From: Saccharicrinis aurantiacus
GTDB lineage: Bacteria > Bacteroidota > Bacteroidia > Bacteroidales > Marinilabiliaceae
Direction: 5' to 3'
Length of the DNA stretch: 64,000 nucleotides
NCBI RefSeq assembly: GCF_001660705.2
Contig: NZ_LYBV02000030.1
Span: forward strand, 186,001 to 250,000
Positions 3,162 to 9,093 of this stretch are shown here, piece by piece; position 1 is the first letter of the stretch; every line of letters begins with the position of its first letter. The notes beneath the pieces are model-generated. The model saw only the letters and a program-made list of their open reading frames with translations, did no database searches and was not told the DNA's origin. Made by a program: the position numbers and the translations under genes.

Positions 3162-4634
3162 CTAAAGCTGCTGAATATTCATTATTAACTCGGCTGCCTT
3201 TTGGTTTTGACCGGTTTCTTTATAAACAACAGCCAAGTCATAAAGGGGGTCTAATTCATTCTTAGGTGCATATTGTATGGCTTTTTTTATATTTGTAATG
3301 CCAGCCTCTGATTCGCCCATTTTATGCATGCATAAACCTAGGCCTTTAAGGGCATACCAGTCTGTTGCATTATTTTTTAATATAACTTCATTGCTATTAC
3401 GAGCAATATTATAATTACCCAAGAAGAAATTAACAAAACCATTTAAAGAATTAAGCTTTGTATCATCAGGATTGTTTTTTAACATGTGTTTTAATATTGT
3501 AGCAGATTCTTGATAGTTGCCACTAAGAGCTAAATCTTCTGAAAATTTATACAGATTAGATTCTGAGTAATTCAGTAAAGATGCGCTCAATTTACTTAAT
3601 GCAACATTGTAAGCGCAGAATTTATTTTCGGCATAAATAGACCCTTCAGTGGTTAATCTGGTATTTGGGCAACCACCTAAACAAACATCTCCGTATTTAC
3701 ATTCATTGCACGTACCCTTTAGGTCGGCCTTTTTCATGTTTCGTGACCAAGCAAACGAATTTGCATCTTTCCATATTTCGGGTAAAGTCCGCTCACGAAT
3801 ATTACCTTCAATAAATTCACGGTCACGAATTGATGTACATCCTATTATATCACCATTGTGTAAAACACCAAAACCTCTTATTCCGGCATTGCATCCCGAC
3901 CATGGCATATCAGTGGAGTTACCCAGACTAATTTTACGTACTTCTTCTTCTTCTTCGGTATAATAGCCTAAACAATCAGCAGGGTAAACTGTAATTTTAT
4001 TTTCGCGTGCTGTTTCAAGGCAAAATTCTAATATCTTGGGTATGTCTTCAGGCTCTATAAGTTGTTCTTTTTGTGTTTTCATATTTCCCATAGGAATACA
4101 AATCTGTAGCTGCCAAGATTTCACACCTTTATCTACTAGGATATTCTTTATATCCCTTAATTGATTTATATTGGTTTTAGAGATACTTGTAATTGCCCCA
4201 GTATATTGATTATGCTTATGAAGTAACTCAAAAGCATGCATACTTTTATTAAATGAGCCTTTTTTACGTATATAATCATGTGTTTCTTCTGTACCATCTA
4301 TACTGATTGCAGTTGTTCCTATTCCTGAGTCAACCATTTTAGAGACAATATCTTCCGTAATAGCCCATCCATTGGTTATAATATTAGGGATCACACCATT
4401 TGATCTTAGCGTTTTAGCAATAAGCGGCCAATCTTTTCGTGTTAATGGCTCACCACCAGAAAGTGTGATCCACTGTAAGCCTAACTCTGCAATCTCATCG
4501 CAAAGAGATAGAGCTTCTTTAGTGGATAATTCGCCTTTTAAGGCATTTTCGCAGCTTGATCCACAATGTTTGCATCTCATATTACAAGCCATTGTAATTT
4601 CCCAAACTGCTGTTGTAGCTTTATATTCCGACAT
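3162..4634 (-). CDS. Radical SAM/SPASM maturase with C-terminal TPR domain
   Basis: A 490-residue enzyme. The radical SAM cluster motif CX3CX2C is at C17/C21/C24, followed by the S-G-G-E-P motif near residue 60. A complete SPASM domain supplies the auxiliary iron-sulfur ligands: C248, C266, C309, C312, C318, C322 and C340 in CX17C...CX2CX5CX3C...C order. Residues ~345-490 are TPR-like helical repeats. SPASM enzymes typically modify ribosomally made peptides or proteins (thioether, C-C or epimer chemistry), so it should act on a gene-encoded substrate, with the TPRs as a plausible docking surface. The best candidate substrate is the I42/tyrosine-repeat protein encoded 54 bases upstream in the same direction. 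The chemistry is not predictable from sequence. Confidence 0.9.
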   Translation of the reverse strand: MSEYKATTAVWEITMACNMRCKHCGSSCENALKGELSTKEALSLCDEIAELGLQWITLSGGEPLTRKDWPLIAKTLRSNGVIPNIITNGWAITEDIVSKMVDSGIGTTAISIDGTEETHDYIRKKGSFNKSMHAFELLHKHNQYTGAITSISKTNINQLRDIKNILVDKGVKSWQLQICIPMGNMKTQKEQLIEPEDIPKILEFCLETARENKITVYPADCLGYYTEEEEEVRKISLGNSTDMPWSGCNAGIRGFGVLHNGDIIGCTSIRDREFIEGNIRERTLPEIWKDANSFAWSRNMKKADLKGTCNECKYGDVCLGGCPNTRLTTEGSIYAENKFCAYNVALSKLSASLLNYSESNLYKFSEDLALSGNYQESATILKHMLKNNPDDTKLNSLNGFVNFFLGNYNIARNSNEVILKNNATDWYALKGLGLCMHKMGESEAGITNIKKAIQYAPKNELDPLYDLAVVYKETGQNQKAAELIMNIQQL

Positions 4635-4656
4635 AACAATAAAAATTTTAAATAAA

Positions 4657-4679
4657 TAAGGGCTACTTAATAGCCCTTA
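4657..4679 (-). terminator. Hairpin between candidate substrate gene and rSAM gene (attenuator-like)
   Basis: A perfect 9-bp inverted repeat, TAAGGGCTA and TAGCCCTTA with a 5-base loop, lies 10 bases after the stop of the I42-tail gene. On the minus strand it is followed by a T-rich run. It resembles a leaky terminator that would let the upstream gene be expressed in excess over the enzyme, a common arrangement for RiPP precursors. It could also be a processing or stability hairpin. Confidence 0.55.
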
Positions 4680-4688
4680 CCTTATTAG

Positions 4689-5462
4689 TTAACAACAATC
4701 TGAAGGATCATCACAAGGATCATCACAAGGATCACATTGGTAATTTGGATCACAAGGGTTTGGAAAACCGTAAGGTATCATTGGAGTGCACATGTTCGCA
4801 CTATTGATAGGATATCCATAATACATGCGAGTATTTAGACCTTGTATATTTGGTCGAACATTATATAATGATGATATACCTGGTATATTGTATTGTGTTT
4901 GCGGACGTATGCCGTACTTCAATCTTCCGTCTCCAGGGCCTTGTGTAAGTACACCATATTTTAAGCGAAGATCTCCTCTTCTTTCGATAGGTATCCCATA
5001 TTTCAAACGAATATCACCAATAGTACCGCTGCTTCTTTTAAGATCACTCGGCATTTGAACTGCATACAACATTGTTGGGTCGTATTGTCTTAATGATACC
5101 TCGGGCTTACTTACAAAGCCTTTTACTTTTAACTTATCTAGATCAATATTTTCTTCGCTCTGTTTATCTACAGTGATTTGATATTCAATTGTTTTAACAG
5201 GTTCTCCTTCTTCTTTCCATGAAGCAGCGAGCACAAATGTAACAACAGCTTTACCAGTACCTGTTGGTATAAAAGAAAATATTTGTTCAATCGGACCCAT
5301 GCGTCTGCTAGAATTTTGTACTCTTATATCCAATAGATTAACACAACCATTTAGTCCTTCCAATTGCCATCCATATCCTGTTGAACCCATCATAGATTCA
5401 AGGCTAATGTCAATTACATGCCCAATTTCGGCGCTGAGAGTTTCTTTGTTTATTTTATCCAT
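4689..5462 (-). CDS. Chagasin-like (I42) protein with tyrosine-repeat and Cys-rich tail; candidate rSAM substrate
   Basis: A 257-residue protein without a signal peptide. Residues ~10-98 resemble the chagasin/I42 cysteine-protease inhibitor fold: G-S-T-G-Y-G-W at 26-32 corresponds to the N-P-T-T-G-Y loop, and A-A-S-W at 79-82 sits where R-P-W is normally found. The C-terminal ~150 residues are unlike I42 proteins. They carry three 14-residue repeats containing G-D-x-R-L-K-Y-G (Tyr155, Tyr169, Tyr183) within a longer series of Y-[G/A/N]-[V/I/Y/F] sites (Tyr133, 200, 215, 231), and end in a Cys/Asp/Pro-rich tail with seven Cys at 237-257. The repeated, low-complexity tail beside a SPASM enzyme suggests that the tail is modified. 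The I42 domain might serve as leader or as the effector. Confidence 0.75.
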   Translation of the reverse strand: MDKINKETLSAEIGHVIDISLESMMGSTGYGWQLEGLNGCVNLLDIRVQNSSRRMGPIEQIFSFIPTGTGKAVVTFVLAASWKEEGEPVKTIEYQITVDKQSEENIDLDKLKVKGFVSKPEVSLRQYDPTMLYAVQMPSDLKRSSGTIGDIRLKYGIPIERRGDLRLKYGVLTQGPGDGRLKYGIRPQTQYNIPGISSLYNVRPNIQGLNTRMYYGYPINSANMCTPMIPYGFPNPCDPNYQCDPCDDPCDDPSDCC

Positions 5463-5490
5463 TATTGTTTAATTAAAGGTGTTTGAAGAT

Positions 5491-5766
5491 TTATTTGCAA
5501 AGCTCAATTGATGAGATGTGTTCTTCTCCTTTTAAAGGTTGGAAAATTGTAATCATCGCAGGTTGTGTGATAGCTTTAAGGGCAGTTACCTTTGTATTAC
5601 AGAAAAACTTGTAATTAGTACCAGCCACAACTTGTGTAGCAACAGCTATAGGTTGATAGTTTACACCATGTAAACCTTGGGTAGCTCGTTCGAAAATTTG
5701 TTTCTCATCATCAGAGATTTTTGAATTAAAGGCTGTGTAAGCTCCTGTCATTAATGAAGTTTCCAT
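5491..5766 (-). CDS. Stefin-like cystatin (putative papain-family protease inhibitor)
   Basis: A 91-residue protein from the chosen ATG; an upstream in-frame ATG at 5802 would add 12 residues. The sequence follows cytosolic type-1 cystatins (stefins). It has an N-terminal Gly (T-G-A-Y, residue 8), a helix, then Q-V-V-A-G-T-N-Y at 45-52, the protease-binding loop of stefins, and I-F-Q-P-L at 74-78 matching the stefin V-F-Q-S-L strand. No signal peptide is present. It should inhibit C1-family cysteine proteases, although no such protease is encoded nearby. It is 28 bases upstream of the I42 gene, so two structurally unrelated papain-inhibitor folds are encoded side by side. The 295 bases upstream probably hold its promoter. 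Confidence 0.75.
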   Translation of the reverse strand: METSLMTGAYTAFNSKISDDEKQIFERATQGLHGVNYQPIAVATQVVAGTNYKFFCNTKVTALKAITQPAMITIFQPLKGEEHISSIELCK

Positions 5767-6097
5767 AATTTGTTTGTTAAAGTTAAAATAGAATAATTCC
5801 ATAAAGTAAGTTAAACAACGTTGCGCTGTTTCTATTTAAATTTACGGGAAACTGGGAAGAAAAAATATTACACAATATTACATACAGCCAATTGGCTTTA
5901 ACCTGTATTATATATTATAATTTCGTCATGAGTATTGAAATAGTAATAAAATATAGCTTTACAGAAATGCTCCAAGGCATATTTCTAAATGGTTGAGGTT
6001 AAGTAATTATGGGTCTTGTTTGAAGATAGTTTAAGGTAGAGTAGTTTTACAAATGTGGGTCTTATTATTTAGAATACGGAATAAATAAACTAAGAGC

Positions 6098-7027
6098 TTA
6101 CAGGGTAAGGTCAGCATCTTCGTGATTAAAACTTGTGTTTGATTCTATTTGGTGTTTTATTGAGGTAAAATCTAATGAATTAAACTCATTAAAGATGATT
6201 TGAGATTCATTAGGTCGTTTATTTGGATCTTTATGGAGTACTTTTTTTAGTATAACTCCAAGTGGATGATTTGCAATGTTTGGGGGAATAAAAATATTGT
6301 TTGAAGATAATTGGAGTTGTAGTATTTCGTTTATAGAATTACCTATAATTGCCGGCCTGCCAGTTAAACATTCTAATAGAATTAGTCCCCACGAATACAA
6401 ATCAGTTTTGTAAGTTGTGGGTTCTCCTCTTAATTGTTCAGGTGAACTATATGCTGGAGAGCCTGACATTTGATTATAGCAGTTATTTTTGTTAGAGTGA
6501 ATATATAGGGTTTTGTTGGTAAACTGACTTATACCGAAATCTAAAATTTTAATATGCTTTTTTGCTCCTGAGTGCTGTATCATTATATTTTTCGGTTTTA
6601 GGTCTTTATGTATAATTCCCTTATTATGTATACAAACTAAAGCATCTAGCACTTGACTCATTAGCTCAACAATATCCGAAATAGACAATTTTTTCTTTGT
6701 TAAAATATAATCCTTCAGTGTTATTCCAAATATATACTCAAATACAGCAAACTGTAAGTTGTCATTTGTAATTCCTCTATCCAAAACTTTAATAATATTT
6801 GGATGACTTATTTTAGTACACAAGTGTATTTCTTGTTTAAATTTTGTTATCTGCTTATTTTCAAAGTTACTATAAGAGCCATTAGTGTATTTGATTACTT
6901 TTATTGCAACTACTTGTCCAGTACTAATTTGTGTGCCTTTATATACTCTGCCAAATTTTCCTTCGCCAATTTTATTGTGCAAAATATAATTATTGTGAGA
7001 GAATTGTTGGGTAATAGGATCAGTCAT
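6098..7027 (-). CDS. Serine/threonine protein kinase (Hanks type, cytosolic)
   Basis: A 309-residue kinase domain protein with no membrane segment. The Gly-rich loop G-E-G-K-F-G is at 21-26, the ATP-binding Lys is K43 in V-A-I-K, the catalytic loop is H-K-D-L-K-P-K-N at 140-147 (a Lys replaces the usual Arg of HRD), the D-F-G is at 163-165, and an S-P-E motif stands in place of A-P-E. The domain ends near residue 280; the last ~25 residues are polar. It should phosphorylate Ser/Thr on partner proteins. It sits 89 bases downstream of the FHA gene on the same strand, so phosphothreonine recognition by that protein is a natural inference. Some 330 bases separate it from the cystatin gene. Confidence 0.9.
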   Translation of the reverse strand: MTDPITQQFSHNNYILHNKIGEGKFGRVYKGTQISTGQVVAIKVIKYTNGSYSNFENKQITKFKQEIHLCTKISHPNIIKVLDRGITNDNLQFAVFEYIFGITLKDYILTKKKLSISDIVELMSQVLDALVCIHNKGIIHKDLKPKNIMIQHSGAKKHIKILDFGISQFTNKTLYIHSNKNNCYNQMSGSPAYSSPEQLRGEPTTYKTDLYSWGLILLECLTGRPAIIGNSINEILQLQLSSNNIFIPPNIANHPLGVILKKVLHKDPNKRPNESQIIFNEFNSLDFTSIKHQIESNTSFNHEDADLTL

Positions 7028-7115
7028 GATTTTTATCTAATAAAAGTAGGATTGGCTAAAAGTGGATCTCAATAATATGGATTGAAATATTTTAATGGAC
7101 CCTTGAGTGCAATTA

Positions 7116-8087
7116 CTAATAAATCTCGAGAACAGGCTGTTTCTGTTTTGCAATGTTTAGCGAATTACTTCTTATAATCTTGAAATGAGGATGCGTAAAT
7201 CTAAGTTTTCCTTTTTTTCGTTCAATAATATTTGAGAAGAGGTATCCATATGGTTTAATTTCCATTATTTTTTTTCTTAATCGGTGTACCTGAATATTTA
7301 AATAGTAATCATCAATATCTATTAATAATTCTTTACTTAAGAAATTCTCCATTTTAGATACAGAGATCCACCCCTGATTTCTCTGATCAAGCCCACTATT
7401 TCTATCTATTAATTTCTGACGTACTAGCTCTAATAATAGATGGTTATATACTTTGACGCCTAACTCTAAGTGCAAATCATTAATGATAATCTTTACATCA
7501 ACATCTTCCTCATCGTCGCTTATTGTAAAGAGAAAGTATGATTGATCGATGATATTACAAAAATCTATGGTGTACTCTATTATTTCATTTTCAATAAAGA
7601 GCCATTCATTATTTCCGAAAATATATTTATTACCATTCTTAAGTTCAATAGTTTCGTGACCAGTATCGGCATTCCATTTATAGGTATTAGTTTTAAAAAA
7701 AGATACTAGTGGAGTTTTATTATTTGGTAACATGTTTAAGGAATTTAGCTCGAAGATACAATTAGGTATTTTTGTTGAGAGTAAATAGCTAGAAGGAGGT
7801 TTATCATCAATTATTTCCCAAATTATTGATTTATCATTGGCAAATCGAATAATATTGCCAATAGATAATGTTTTGCATGAGTGATGAAAGTACTTGTTAT
7901 CTAATATAGTTCCATTCTTACTATTGTCAATAATTTGCCATTCTGATTCTTCCCATCTAATTACAGCATGAAAGCGCGAAATGCAATTACATGTTAGTTG
8001 AGTTTGATTATGTTTCGCACGTCCAAATTGATGGATCGATTTTAAGATTATTTCTTCACCTGTATTTCTATTTTTAATGATACCCAT
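7116..8087 (-). CDS. FHA domain protein with C-terminal winged-helix-like region
   Basis: A 323-residue soluble protein. Residues ~1-95 are an FHA phosphothreonine-binding domain, with F-G-R, S-R-F-H-A and N-S-K-N-G-T in the expected order. The middle (~100-220) is beta-rich with no recognised domain. Residues ~215-310 look like a winged helix, with an L-L-E-L-V-R helix, a V-H-R-L-R-K-K-I recognition-like helix and a wing near P-Y-G-Y-L-F. FHA-winged helix fusions are thought to link phosphorylation to transcription. It is the first gene of the run leading to the kinase, cystatin, I42 protein and rSAM enzyme, so it may regulate them. The DNA-binding role is inferred. Confidence 0.8.
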   Translation of the reverse strand: MGIIKNRNTGEEIILKSIHQFGRAKHNQTQLTCNCISRFHAVIRWEESEWQIIDNSKNGTILDNKYFHHSCKTLSIGNIIRFANDKSIIWEIIDDKPPSSYLLSTKIPNCIFELNSLNMLPNNKTPLVSFFKTNTYKWNADTGHETIELKNGNKYIFGNNEWLFIENEIIEYTIDFCNIIDQSYFLFTISDDEEDVDVKIIINDLHLELGVKVYNHLLLELVRQKLIDRNSGLDQRNQGWISVSKMENFLSKELLIDIDDYYLNIQVHRLRKKIMEIKPYGYLFSNIIERKKGKLRFTHPHFKIIRSNSLNIAKQKQPVLEIY

Positions 8088-8390
8088 GGGAGTTTGGTAT
8101 TGAGTTTAATAAAAAGTATCATGATCTATATATGTTGAGAAAATAGACTCAATGTAAACAACTTTAGACCCATGTTGATTTTTATTCAAAATTATTAAAG
8201 CTGTATTTTAGCCGTAGTTTTTATTAAGAATGAAAATTGCAGAGTTTTAAAGTTGATTAATAGCTCTTGATATTGATTAGAATAAAGTTAACTCTTTTCT
8301 TGAGAAGAATAAAGGTCATTTTTTATATTCCATTAAAAAGTAATCCTACGTGGGTTGAGAATGTCTTTTATTCTTTATATCATAGAATAA
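8088..8390. other. Intergenic region upstream of the FHA gene
   Basis: About 300 bases of AT-rich sequence with no plausible gene, between the FHA start and the hairpin that ends the DEAD-box gene. It must contain the promoter of the minus-strand FHA-kinase run, but no convincing -33/-7 pair was picked out. Confidence 0.4.
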
Positions 8391-8463: not shown

Positions 8464-9093
8464 TTATTCAGGAGAATGTTCGTCAAACTCCATTATCAAT
8501 GGATTTTTCATCATTCGTTCCTCAACCTTCTCAAATTTGTCAGTCCATTTATTTGCAAAAAATAAGAATTGCGACTTTTCTATACCATCTGCAATACGAT
8601 AAATAACAGGATGGTGCAGGTGCGGGCTTAGCATTTCAGCATCATCAACCGCAAATATCTTCACTTTAGTCATTGGAATCCCTTGTACTGATAGTAACTC
8701 ACCAATACGTTTTGGAGTTCCAATAACAACATCAACACCTTCGTAGATCATATCTTTTTGGTATTGCATTATTCCTTCATCAAAAACAATAAAAGAACGT
8801 AATTTGGTTTGTTTGCTTAGCAAGTCAAACTGTTCTTCTACAGCAAATGCTTTGGCTTTTGATTCAACCATAATTATGGCTCTTGGAGCCTCCTCAAAAG
8901 GTTTTTTTAATTGTTGAATAATAGAAATAATAATAGCAGTTGTTTTTCCGCTACCTTCAGGAGCAATTACAAACATATCTGCTCCTGATTTAATTTTAGG
9001 GATACATACTGTCTGTACCTCACGAGGTTCTTTATCGTACTCGTGATTTATAAGTTCCGAAGCTAATTCAGGTATTAATTTCTTTAATTTCAT
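8464..9093 (-). CDS. Short DEAD/DEAH-box ATPase, N-terminal helicase domain only
   Basis: A 209-residue protein matching the first RecA-like domain of DEAD-box RNA helicases. Visible are a Q-motif-like R-E-V-Q-T (24-28), motif I A-P-E-G-S-G-K-T-T (44-52), a T-P-K-R-I motif Ib (126-130) and motif II as D-D-A-E (150-153) in place of D-E-A-D. Motif III is not obvious. The second domain with motifs IV-VI is absent and the gene ends cleanly before a strong hairpin, so it is probably a natural short protein rather than a broken gene. It may bind nucleotide or RNA but is unlikely to be a processive helicase alone. Confidence 0.75.
   Translation of the reverse strand: MKLKKLIPELASELINHEYDKEPREVQTVCIPKIKSGADMFVIAPEGSGKTTAIIISIIQQLKKPFEEAPRAIIMVESKAKAFAVEEQFDLLSKQTKLRSFIVFDEGIMQYQKDMIYEGVDVVIGTPKRIGELLSVQGIPMTKVKIFAVDDAEMLSPHLHHPVIYRIADGIEKSQFLFFANKWTDKFEKVEERMMKNPLIMEFDEHSPE

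Follow-up and report, generated by a model that had tools for sequence, protein, structure and literature searches.

The 64,000-nucleotide stretch of Saccharicrinis aurantiacus DNA analysed here (the window; contig C24 of a 5.9 Mb genome) encodes a radical S-adenosylmethionine (SAM) enzyme with a SPASM domain, next to a chagasin-like Inhibitor_I42 (I42) protein whose long tail carries five X-Tyr-Gly (XYG) sites. These two proteins are the core of the system. The enzyme very probably modifies the tail of its neighbor, and from the sequences the pair looks like an unusual variant of splicease chemistry. A first-pass annotation had described five genes on one strand, encoding an FHA protein, a Ser/Thr kinase, a cystatin, the I42 protein and the radical SAM enzyme, with 295 bases between the kinase and cystatin genes. 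All five open reading frames (ORFs) were found on the minus strand at the coordinates it gave, as was the 295-base gap (Table 1). Its family assignments were confirmed by Pfam for the radical SAM/SPASM/TPR enzyme, I42, kinase and FHA proteins; the cystatin was recovered by a family profile and its motif and falls below the Pfam cutoff.

Table 1. Features of the window discussed in the text.
Feature	Position	Strand	Basis
FHA protein, C-terminal region winged-helix-like, probable transcription regulator	7116-8087	-	Pfam FHA, homologues; winged helix from sequence reading
Hanks-type Ser/Thr kinase	6098-7027	-	Pfam; in NCBIfam, closest to the kinase part of TOMM_kin_cyc
Small cystatin/stefin-like protein, accessory	ORF 5491-5802, likelier 5491-5766	-	Profile match to 6i1m; homologue in same position in L036
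I42 (chagasin-like) domain at N-terminus, long tail that has five XYG sites and ends Cys-rich; putative substrate protein	4689-5462	-	Pfam, fold, YG excess
Tail core with the five XYG sites	4761-5015	-	YG excess; synonymous codon differences in RLKYG copies
Terminator-like stem and T-rich tract between I42 and radical SAM genes	4654-4682	-	Folding energy against shuffles
Splicease-like radical SAM/SPASM enzyme, extended by TPR at the C-terminus	3162-4634	-	Pfam, NCBIfam, tree, shared residues

Overlapping sets of genomes were searched for the enzyme: 61 relatives, 295 from the order and 395 each from the phylum and the class. For the order, phylum and class, scoring was confined to the 3 to 5 top candidates in each genome, under strict E limits. 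A collection of genome contigs, queried with a single protein and so covering close relatives only, gave 12 loci. Because of the best-candidate scoring and the reach of that query, the number of loci is a floor; the genomes of the class yielded no further locus besides the one in genome G199. In all five Bacteroidota loci with enzymes of 47.8-60% identity (the window, L029 in G199, L036, L037 and L038), an I42-type protein with a Tyr-rich tail adjoins the enzyme. The I42 gene comes first in four of them and the enzyme gene in L029, and this adjacency, with its swapped order, supports the earlier proposal that the enzyme acts on the I42 tail. The same comparison of neighborhoods gave no support to a conserved five-gene system: a cystatin accompanies the pair in two of the five loci (the window and L036, in the same position) and the kinase and FHA genes in one, the window itself, with L037 a weak test as fewer than 700 bases precede its I42 gene. 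In their stead L036 carries, upstream, a histidine kinase gene and one for a response regulator of LuxR type. Searching plasmids for the I42 protein returned no match.

The I42 protein scores 32.2 bits against PF09394 (cutoff 27.2). Its predicted structure (low confidence, mean predicted local distance difference test score (pLDDT) of 43.1) matches EhICP2 (3m88, E 6.2e-7) and, more weakly, chagasin. As this model and that of the cystatin (mean pLDDT 67.7) are weak, we treat both fold matches as supporting only. In chagasin, NPTTG and RPW are inhibitory loops. The window protein has GSTGYGW rather than NPTTGY, and AASW where RPW is absent, with the STG and W positions remaining. YGW is found in this loop in all five proteins of the group, and we think that this further possible XYG site is structural. 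The L029 carrier, for which Pfam gave no hit at E 0.1, aligns with the window I42 protein at 25% (E 4e-9).

The tail contains five YG sites where 1.13 were expected (p 0.0019, 20,000 shuffles), and YG is in excess in four of the five tails (L029, p 0.0019; L036 and L038, matched by none of 20,000 shuffles). Three RLKYG copies in the window are encoded by CGT TTG AAA TAT GGG, CGC TTA AAA TAT GGT and AGA TTG AAG TAC GGC; since they differ by synonymous changes, the copies look old and their residues selected. For comparison, 29 of 198 genomes searched in the order, that of the window among them, contain PF09394. Of the 29 loci examined, 16 fell outside the loop pattern and were dropped. None of the 13 kept has YG at the loop Tyr, and in 12 the tail is at most one residue long, the exception (L103) having a 201-residue tail with one XYG. 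By eye, the window I42 protein has no signal peptide, and Pfam detected no transporter or peptidase among the nine window proteins scanned, suggesting that the product probably stays in the cell.

In the enzyme, Pfam identifies Radical_SAM (6e-20), SPASM (5.2e-8) and TPR domains. The TPR follows SPASM in the window, L036, L037, L038 and L039 enzymes and is not reported for L029, L040, L048 or L049. The radical SAM motif is CX3CX2C, and its cysteines are conserved in all 14 XYG-linked enzymes compared, which include rows from Nostoc, Azospirillum and Aureibacter. Residues Q175, Q177, M182 and N184 (of a PMGN motif), Y225, W245 and G247 are present in 14/14 of these enzymes versus 0/15 of the TIGR04133-type enzymes described below; W174 is general and not specific to the XYG-linked set. 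M182 and N184 are missing from L002 and L025-L028, and N184 from L070. L002 makes a partial contrast: besides lacking the M and N of PMGN in its enzyme, it has a GG-type peptide without Tyr. In a tree of 43 enzymes, rooted by choice on the TIGR04133-type rows, the window enzyme groups with L036-L038 (100/99); these four, L029 and nine others form a set of 14 (98/96), and the TIGR04103 and DUF1843 enzymes lie in another part (80/60) of the same 28-row clade (100/100).

More distant homologues extend the association to short peptides. Among the 12 loci from the contig collection, three have I42-XYG neighbors, six have short XYG peptides (L039, L040, L043, L045, L046 and L047, with L040 and L046 near-identical in neighborhood), and three have no trusted peptide (L041, L042, L044). 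Homologues in Clostridia and other groups often adjoin such peptides, which carry one or two XYG sites, several of them after a GG leader. The peptide on an Agathobacter plasmid (L048) ends in GPVMYGTGVRM, comparable to GPVMYGTATRD in L045. Short ORFs with a GG/GS leader or a GPxXYG motif, a pattern picked after the peptides had been seen, occur 10 times within 17.4 kb close to ten enzymes, with one ORF in L044 doubtful, against 5 in 105 kb farther off. Viral contigs yielded no pattern match. Beside another related enzyme, L034 7917-8414 (-) encodes a 165-residue protein ending LLYGTPPVPLYQAPSK that matches no Pfam or NCBIfam model.

What ties the window enzyme to known chemistry is its kinship with spliceases. 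An enzyme on a Nostoc plasmid (L049) scores above the TIGR04103 cutoff (853.1 versus 725) and shares Q175, Q177 and PMGN with the window enzyme. The gene upstream encodes a Nif11 precursor ending GRGSIALYGLPPELF, with ALYGLPPELF as its last residues; downstream is a 71-residue protein, missed by Pfam, whose position we compare with that of PlpY. TIGR04103 is presumably the same family as IPR026482, that is, the model of PlpX. Among eight solved structures matched by sequence there was no splicease, the best being SkfB (3.5e-14). PMC11002830 describes PlpX as an IPR026482 member acting with the RiPP recognition element (RRE; RiPP, ribosomally synthesized and post-translationally modified peptide) protein PlpY on Xaa-Tyr-Gly, and reports that the chemical group of spliceotides has been applied to protease inhibition. 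PMC11117315 likewise terms spliceotide products protease inhibitors, and the suggestion in the first-pass annotation of a modified protease inhibitor fits this literature on the products of enzymes acting at XYG sites. PMC10533398 reports that a tag with PIRPGYGLPI, taken from a splicease substrate, underwent splicing in two FtsZ contexts but not in others; the window has the comparable IRLKYGIPI.

We propose that the X-Tyr-Gly sites in the unstructured I42 tail are where the enzyme would act. The reaction would most likely be PlpX-like, with a tyramine unit excised at each Tyr-Gly site and the backbone rejoined, leaving alpha-keto-beta-amino acid residues. The folded I42 domain would provide recognition or act as carrier. 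Up to five ketoamide groups would result on a protein that stays in the cytosol and plausibly works as a multi-headed inhibitor of proteases; the adjacent cystatin-like protein would fit a theme of protease inhibition. Upstream, the kinase and the FHA/winged-helix protein make up a signaling module akin to one in some thiazole/oxazole-modified microcin (TOMM) clusters, and may switch the cluster on. Taken whole, from splicease-type action and a ketoamide product to the kinase/FHA switch, this is in our view the best explanation, and modestly probable. The association of the genes, the motif, the I42 fold and the kinship among the enzymes are observed, whereas the reaction, the location and role of the product and the regulation are inferred.

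Several observations weigh against it. The window enzyme reaches 219.8 bits against its best NCBIfam model, TIGR04103, far below the cutoff of 725, with TIGR04133 (199.1) and TIGR03913 (193.4) close behind; given this score, and the residues shared with a Nostoc enzyme above the cutoff, we label the enzyme splicease-like and do not file it as a TIGR04103 member. The precursor has no Nif11 or NHLP leader, its carrier being Inhibitor_I42, and Pfam recognized no PlpY/RRE partner among the nine window proteins, although it also misses the Nostoc candidate. The LYG tags listed in PMC10533398 failed in FtsZ. In the L037 tail, YG occurs just twice (p 0.20), and YN, YA and YS sites are numerous. Homologues of 33-39% identity within the Bacteroidota (L002, L020-L028) had no I42 match in the flanking DNA examined, and in L041, L042 and L044, which keep M182 and N184 of PMGN, no XYG peptide stands out near the enzyme. 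L029 falls among Clostridia enzymes in the tree (91/77), apart from the other four I42 enzymes, and all five form a single group in 7% of bootstrap trees; I42 carriers may thus predate the split or have been acquired twice.

The last counterpoint comes from 15 relatives of about 26-34% identity (L003-L017), meant as a negative control. The one TIGR04133-type enzyme scanned, L007, scored 449.6 against the TIGR04133 cutoff of 425. In all 15 loci, with enzymes lacking PMGN, a nearby protein has YG followed by P within two residues, YG(x)P, examples being FQACYGTPQDF and EYGVPYAT. We therefore rejected these loci as a control for the motif and kept them as a contrast for enzyme residues only. TIGR04134 matches three of the four such partner proteins scanned, with one of them exceeding the cutoff, and the fourth had no hit. 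YG near an enzyme thus does not mark one clade, and its occurrence beyond the PMGN enzymes suggests a chemistry common to the whole superfamily. The partners in L003-L017 are lipoprotein-like, by eye often with YG(x)P right at the lipobox Cys.

Two other readings were tried and rejected. Heme-synthesis models score below TIGR04103 (AhbD 189.6 bits, not far behind; NirJ2 143.9 bits). For a defense system, the PADLOC hits were to kinase models of a generic sort (mad6 and PD-T4-6 among them) and viperin-like matches to the radical SAM enzyme, and no hit at E 0.1 for the other three proteins.

If the YG sites are the target, a different radical SAM reaction could take place there, for instance one that forms a three-residue cyclophane (Tyr-X-X) or cross-links tyrosine in another way. 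Cross-links are made by many SPASM enzymes, the third residue in the I42 tails is mostly I, V, Y or F, and YN and YA variants occur. The partners of related enzymes, however, include YGG (L043), YGT (L045, L048) and YGP (L068), and a cross-link to the beta-carbon of the third residue is impossible in YGG, which disfavors a cyclophane. The nearest NCBIfam model is moreover that of the nif11 class 3 group and not a cyclophane maturase. We regard such another reaction at the YG sites as an unlikely reading, if the foremost rival to splicing.

The kinase (Pkinase, 6.2e-53) and FHA (4.4e-12) proteins bear on a second alternative, in which all five genes form one integrated system and phosphorylation is part of the modification or of a defense function. 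The genes share a strand and have short gaps, and two of the four loci with FHA homologues (found in 2 of 246 other genomes of the order searched) are TOMM clusters. In one, L111, the YcaO protein is above the TIGR03604 cutoff, and the window kinase had no match within the 13 kb examined; in the other, L112/L114, the L112 kinase is above the TIGR03903 cutoff and is followed, in L114, by an ORF judged YcaO-like by resemblance. L109 and L110 have FHA and kinase genes with no TOMM-type genes in view. The window kinase itself scores 296.8 bits against TIGR03903 (TOMM_kin_cyc), over residues 36-294 and thus the kinase part only, below the cutoff of 705.75; at E 1e-15 or below, Pkinase gives one further match in its genome. 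The C-terminal winged helix of the FHA protein is our reading of the residues, no Pfam model reporting one. Against an integrated system, the kinase and FHA genes were not found in the other four I42 loci (L037 being short), their GC contents (0.301 and 0.294) are below those of the cystatin (0.337), radical SAM (0.355) and I42 (0.371) genes, and the 295-base gap separates them. This alternative is improbable, and because of that absence, the lower GC and the FHA relatives in TOMM clusters, the kinase and FHA genes are probably an acquired regulatory module, attachable to different peptide-modification clusters. The control of the system by this pair, as proposed in the first-pass annotation, thus gains indirect support from the two TOMM clusters. 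The TOMM clusters of L111, L112 and L114 also have a KamA-like radical SAM ORF, and L112 a TOMM kinase/cyclase.

Thioethers to Cys, as in sactipeptides or ranthipeptides, could be expected in Cys-rich tails. In L029, L036 and L038 the YG is often followed by PC, CC or LP, the L047 peptide has KYGVPC, and the window tail has a Cys-rich end with a Cys directly after the stretch of the fifth site. But none of the five ten-residue spans around the window XYG sites contains Cys, nor does a Cys follow the site in the peptides of L039, L040, L045 and L048 or in the first of L043, and we consider thioethers quite improbable. Least probable of all is a tail that is no more than low-complexity spacer, with the substrate of the enzyme elsewhere in the cell: the very low confidence of the tail model is what disorder would give, but the YG excess, the synonymous divergence of the repeats and the co-location in 5/5 loci with swapped order argue otherwise.

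By family profile and motif, the protein encoded at 5491-5802 is a cystatin. Alignment favors a start at 5766 over 5802. Pfam gave no hit up to E 1 for the ORF as listed and, after trimming to the later start, a PF00031 match at E 0.17 (12.6 bits, below the cutoff of 22.2). A profile of the ten-member family matches a solved cystatin (6i1m, E 3.9e-6), and the QxVxG motif is present as QVVAG in QVVAGTNY. In a fold search with a two-sequence model, ranks 1-4 were cystatins and rank 5 SQAPI (best E 0.028). The family occurs in 18 of 296 genomes of the phylum, that of the window included; the 17 other loci had no I42 or radical SAM gene within 1.5 kb on each side. Several copies, in L054, L060, L063, L065 and others, have N-termini that by eye resemble signal peptides.

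Between the I42 and radical SAM genes, the terminator-like stem has a folding energy of -16.2 kcal/mol (z -2.83; equalled in 2 of 200 shuffles), and a simple terminator scan reports it for the plus strand only. It would possibly fit a substrate made in excess of the enzyme. A full TAnnTTTG promoter match upstream of the FHA gene, at 8194, has no TTG at the set distance. The kinase-cystatin gap has no full match, and one-mismatch sites with TTG upstream (5955, 5867) we counted as nothing. A sigma-70 scan found 37 sites versus 33.2 in shuffles. Elsewhere in the window, a DEAD-box ORF at 8464-9093 (-) has only 209 residues and no reported helicase C-terminal domain, and several ORF starts in 19147-46645 are sulfatase-like by eye, marking a possible region for sulfated-glycan degradation.

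A broader proposal is doubtful and offered tentatively: that the I42 product is an intracellular spliceo-protein, with up to five ketoamide sites, a TPR-bearing splicease, a cystatin and a kinase/FHA switch shared with TOMM clusters, and that YG(x)P is common to what enzymes of TIGR04103, TIGR03913, TIGR04133 and the present group act on. If so, excision of tyramine from protein backbones, those of lipoproteins included, would be far commoner than thought, and one motif would link several radical SAM families annotated without function. A folded protease-inhibitor domain would be the leader of a backbone-splicing system and its product a natural multi-site ketoamide protein, giving spliceotides a testable role in protease inhibition and providing an enzyme for multi-site protein labeling.

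The earlier view that no described system resembles this one was too strong, as the nearest chemistry, that of spliceotides, is already published. Morinaka et al. (2018) is reportedly the founding splicease paper, and Scott et al. (2022, Chem) is said to cover splicease diversity. In the literature searched, which does not include these two studies, we found neither chagasin together with radical SAM nor Inhibitor I42 together with RiPP and precursor, and our claim of novelty for the I42 carrier is limited to that literature; TIGR04103, TIGR04133 and TIGR04134 were not named there.

The PlpX-PlpY spliceotide system of Pleurocapsa resembles the window in having a SPASM radical SAM enzyme adjoining an XYG precursor and in its site context, IRxxYGxPI. 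Unlike it, the window has an I42 carrier, several sites per tail, a TPR extension, no recognized RRE partner and an enzyme under the TIGR04103 cutoff. The GDL motif peptide-associated maturase (TIGR03913)/DUF1843 enzymes fall in one large clade with the window enzyme, but their substrates are small DUF1843 peptides and the window enzyme is far below the TIGR03913 cutoff of 591.75. Among five DUF1843-annotated peptides from Azospirillum and Aureibacter, PYG lies close to the start in two and LYA or MYA in two more, the fifth having neither there; at L069 2153-2866, three consecutive DUF1843-annotated peptides adjoining a maturase have LYA, MYA and PYG. TIGR04133/TIGR04134 pairs likewise place a SPASM enzyme beside a YG(x)P protein, but with a lipoprotein-like partner, a site that by eye is usually near the lipobox, no PMGN and a model whose cutoff the window enzyme does not reach. 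TOMM kinase/cyclase (TIGR03903) clusters have a related kinase part and FHA partner, whereas the window kinase stands alone (309 residues) with no YcaO gene among the neighbors scanned. Finally, chagasin/I42 inhibitors share their fold with the window I42 protein, and cystatin inhibitors probably theirs with the other small partner, but in the window the I42 loop is altered, RPW is absent and the cystatin is under the Pfam cutoff.

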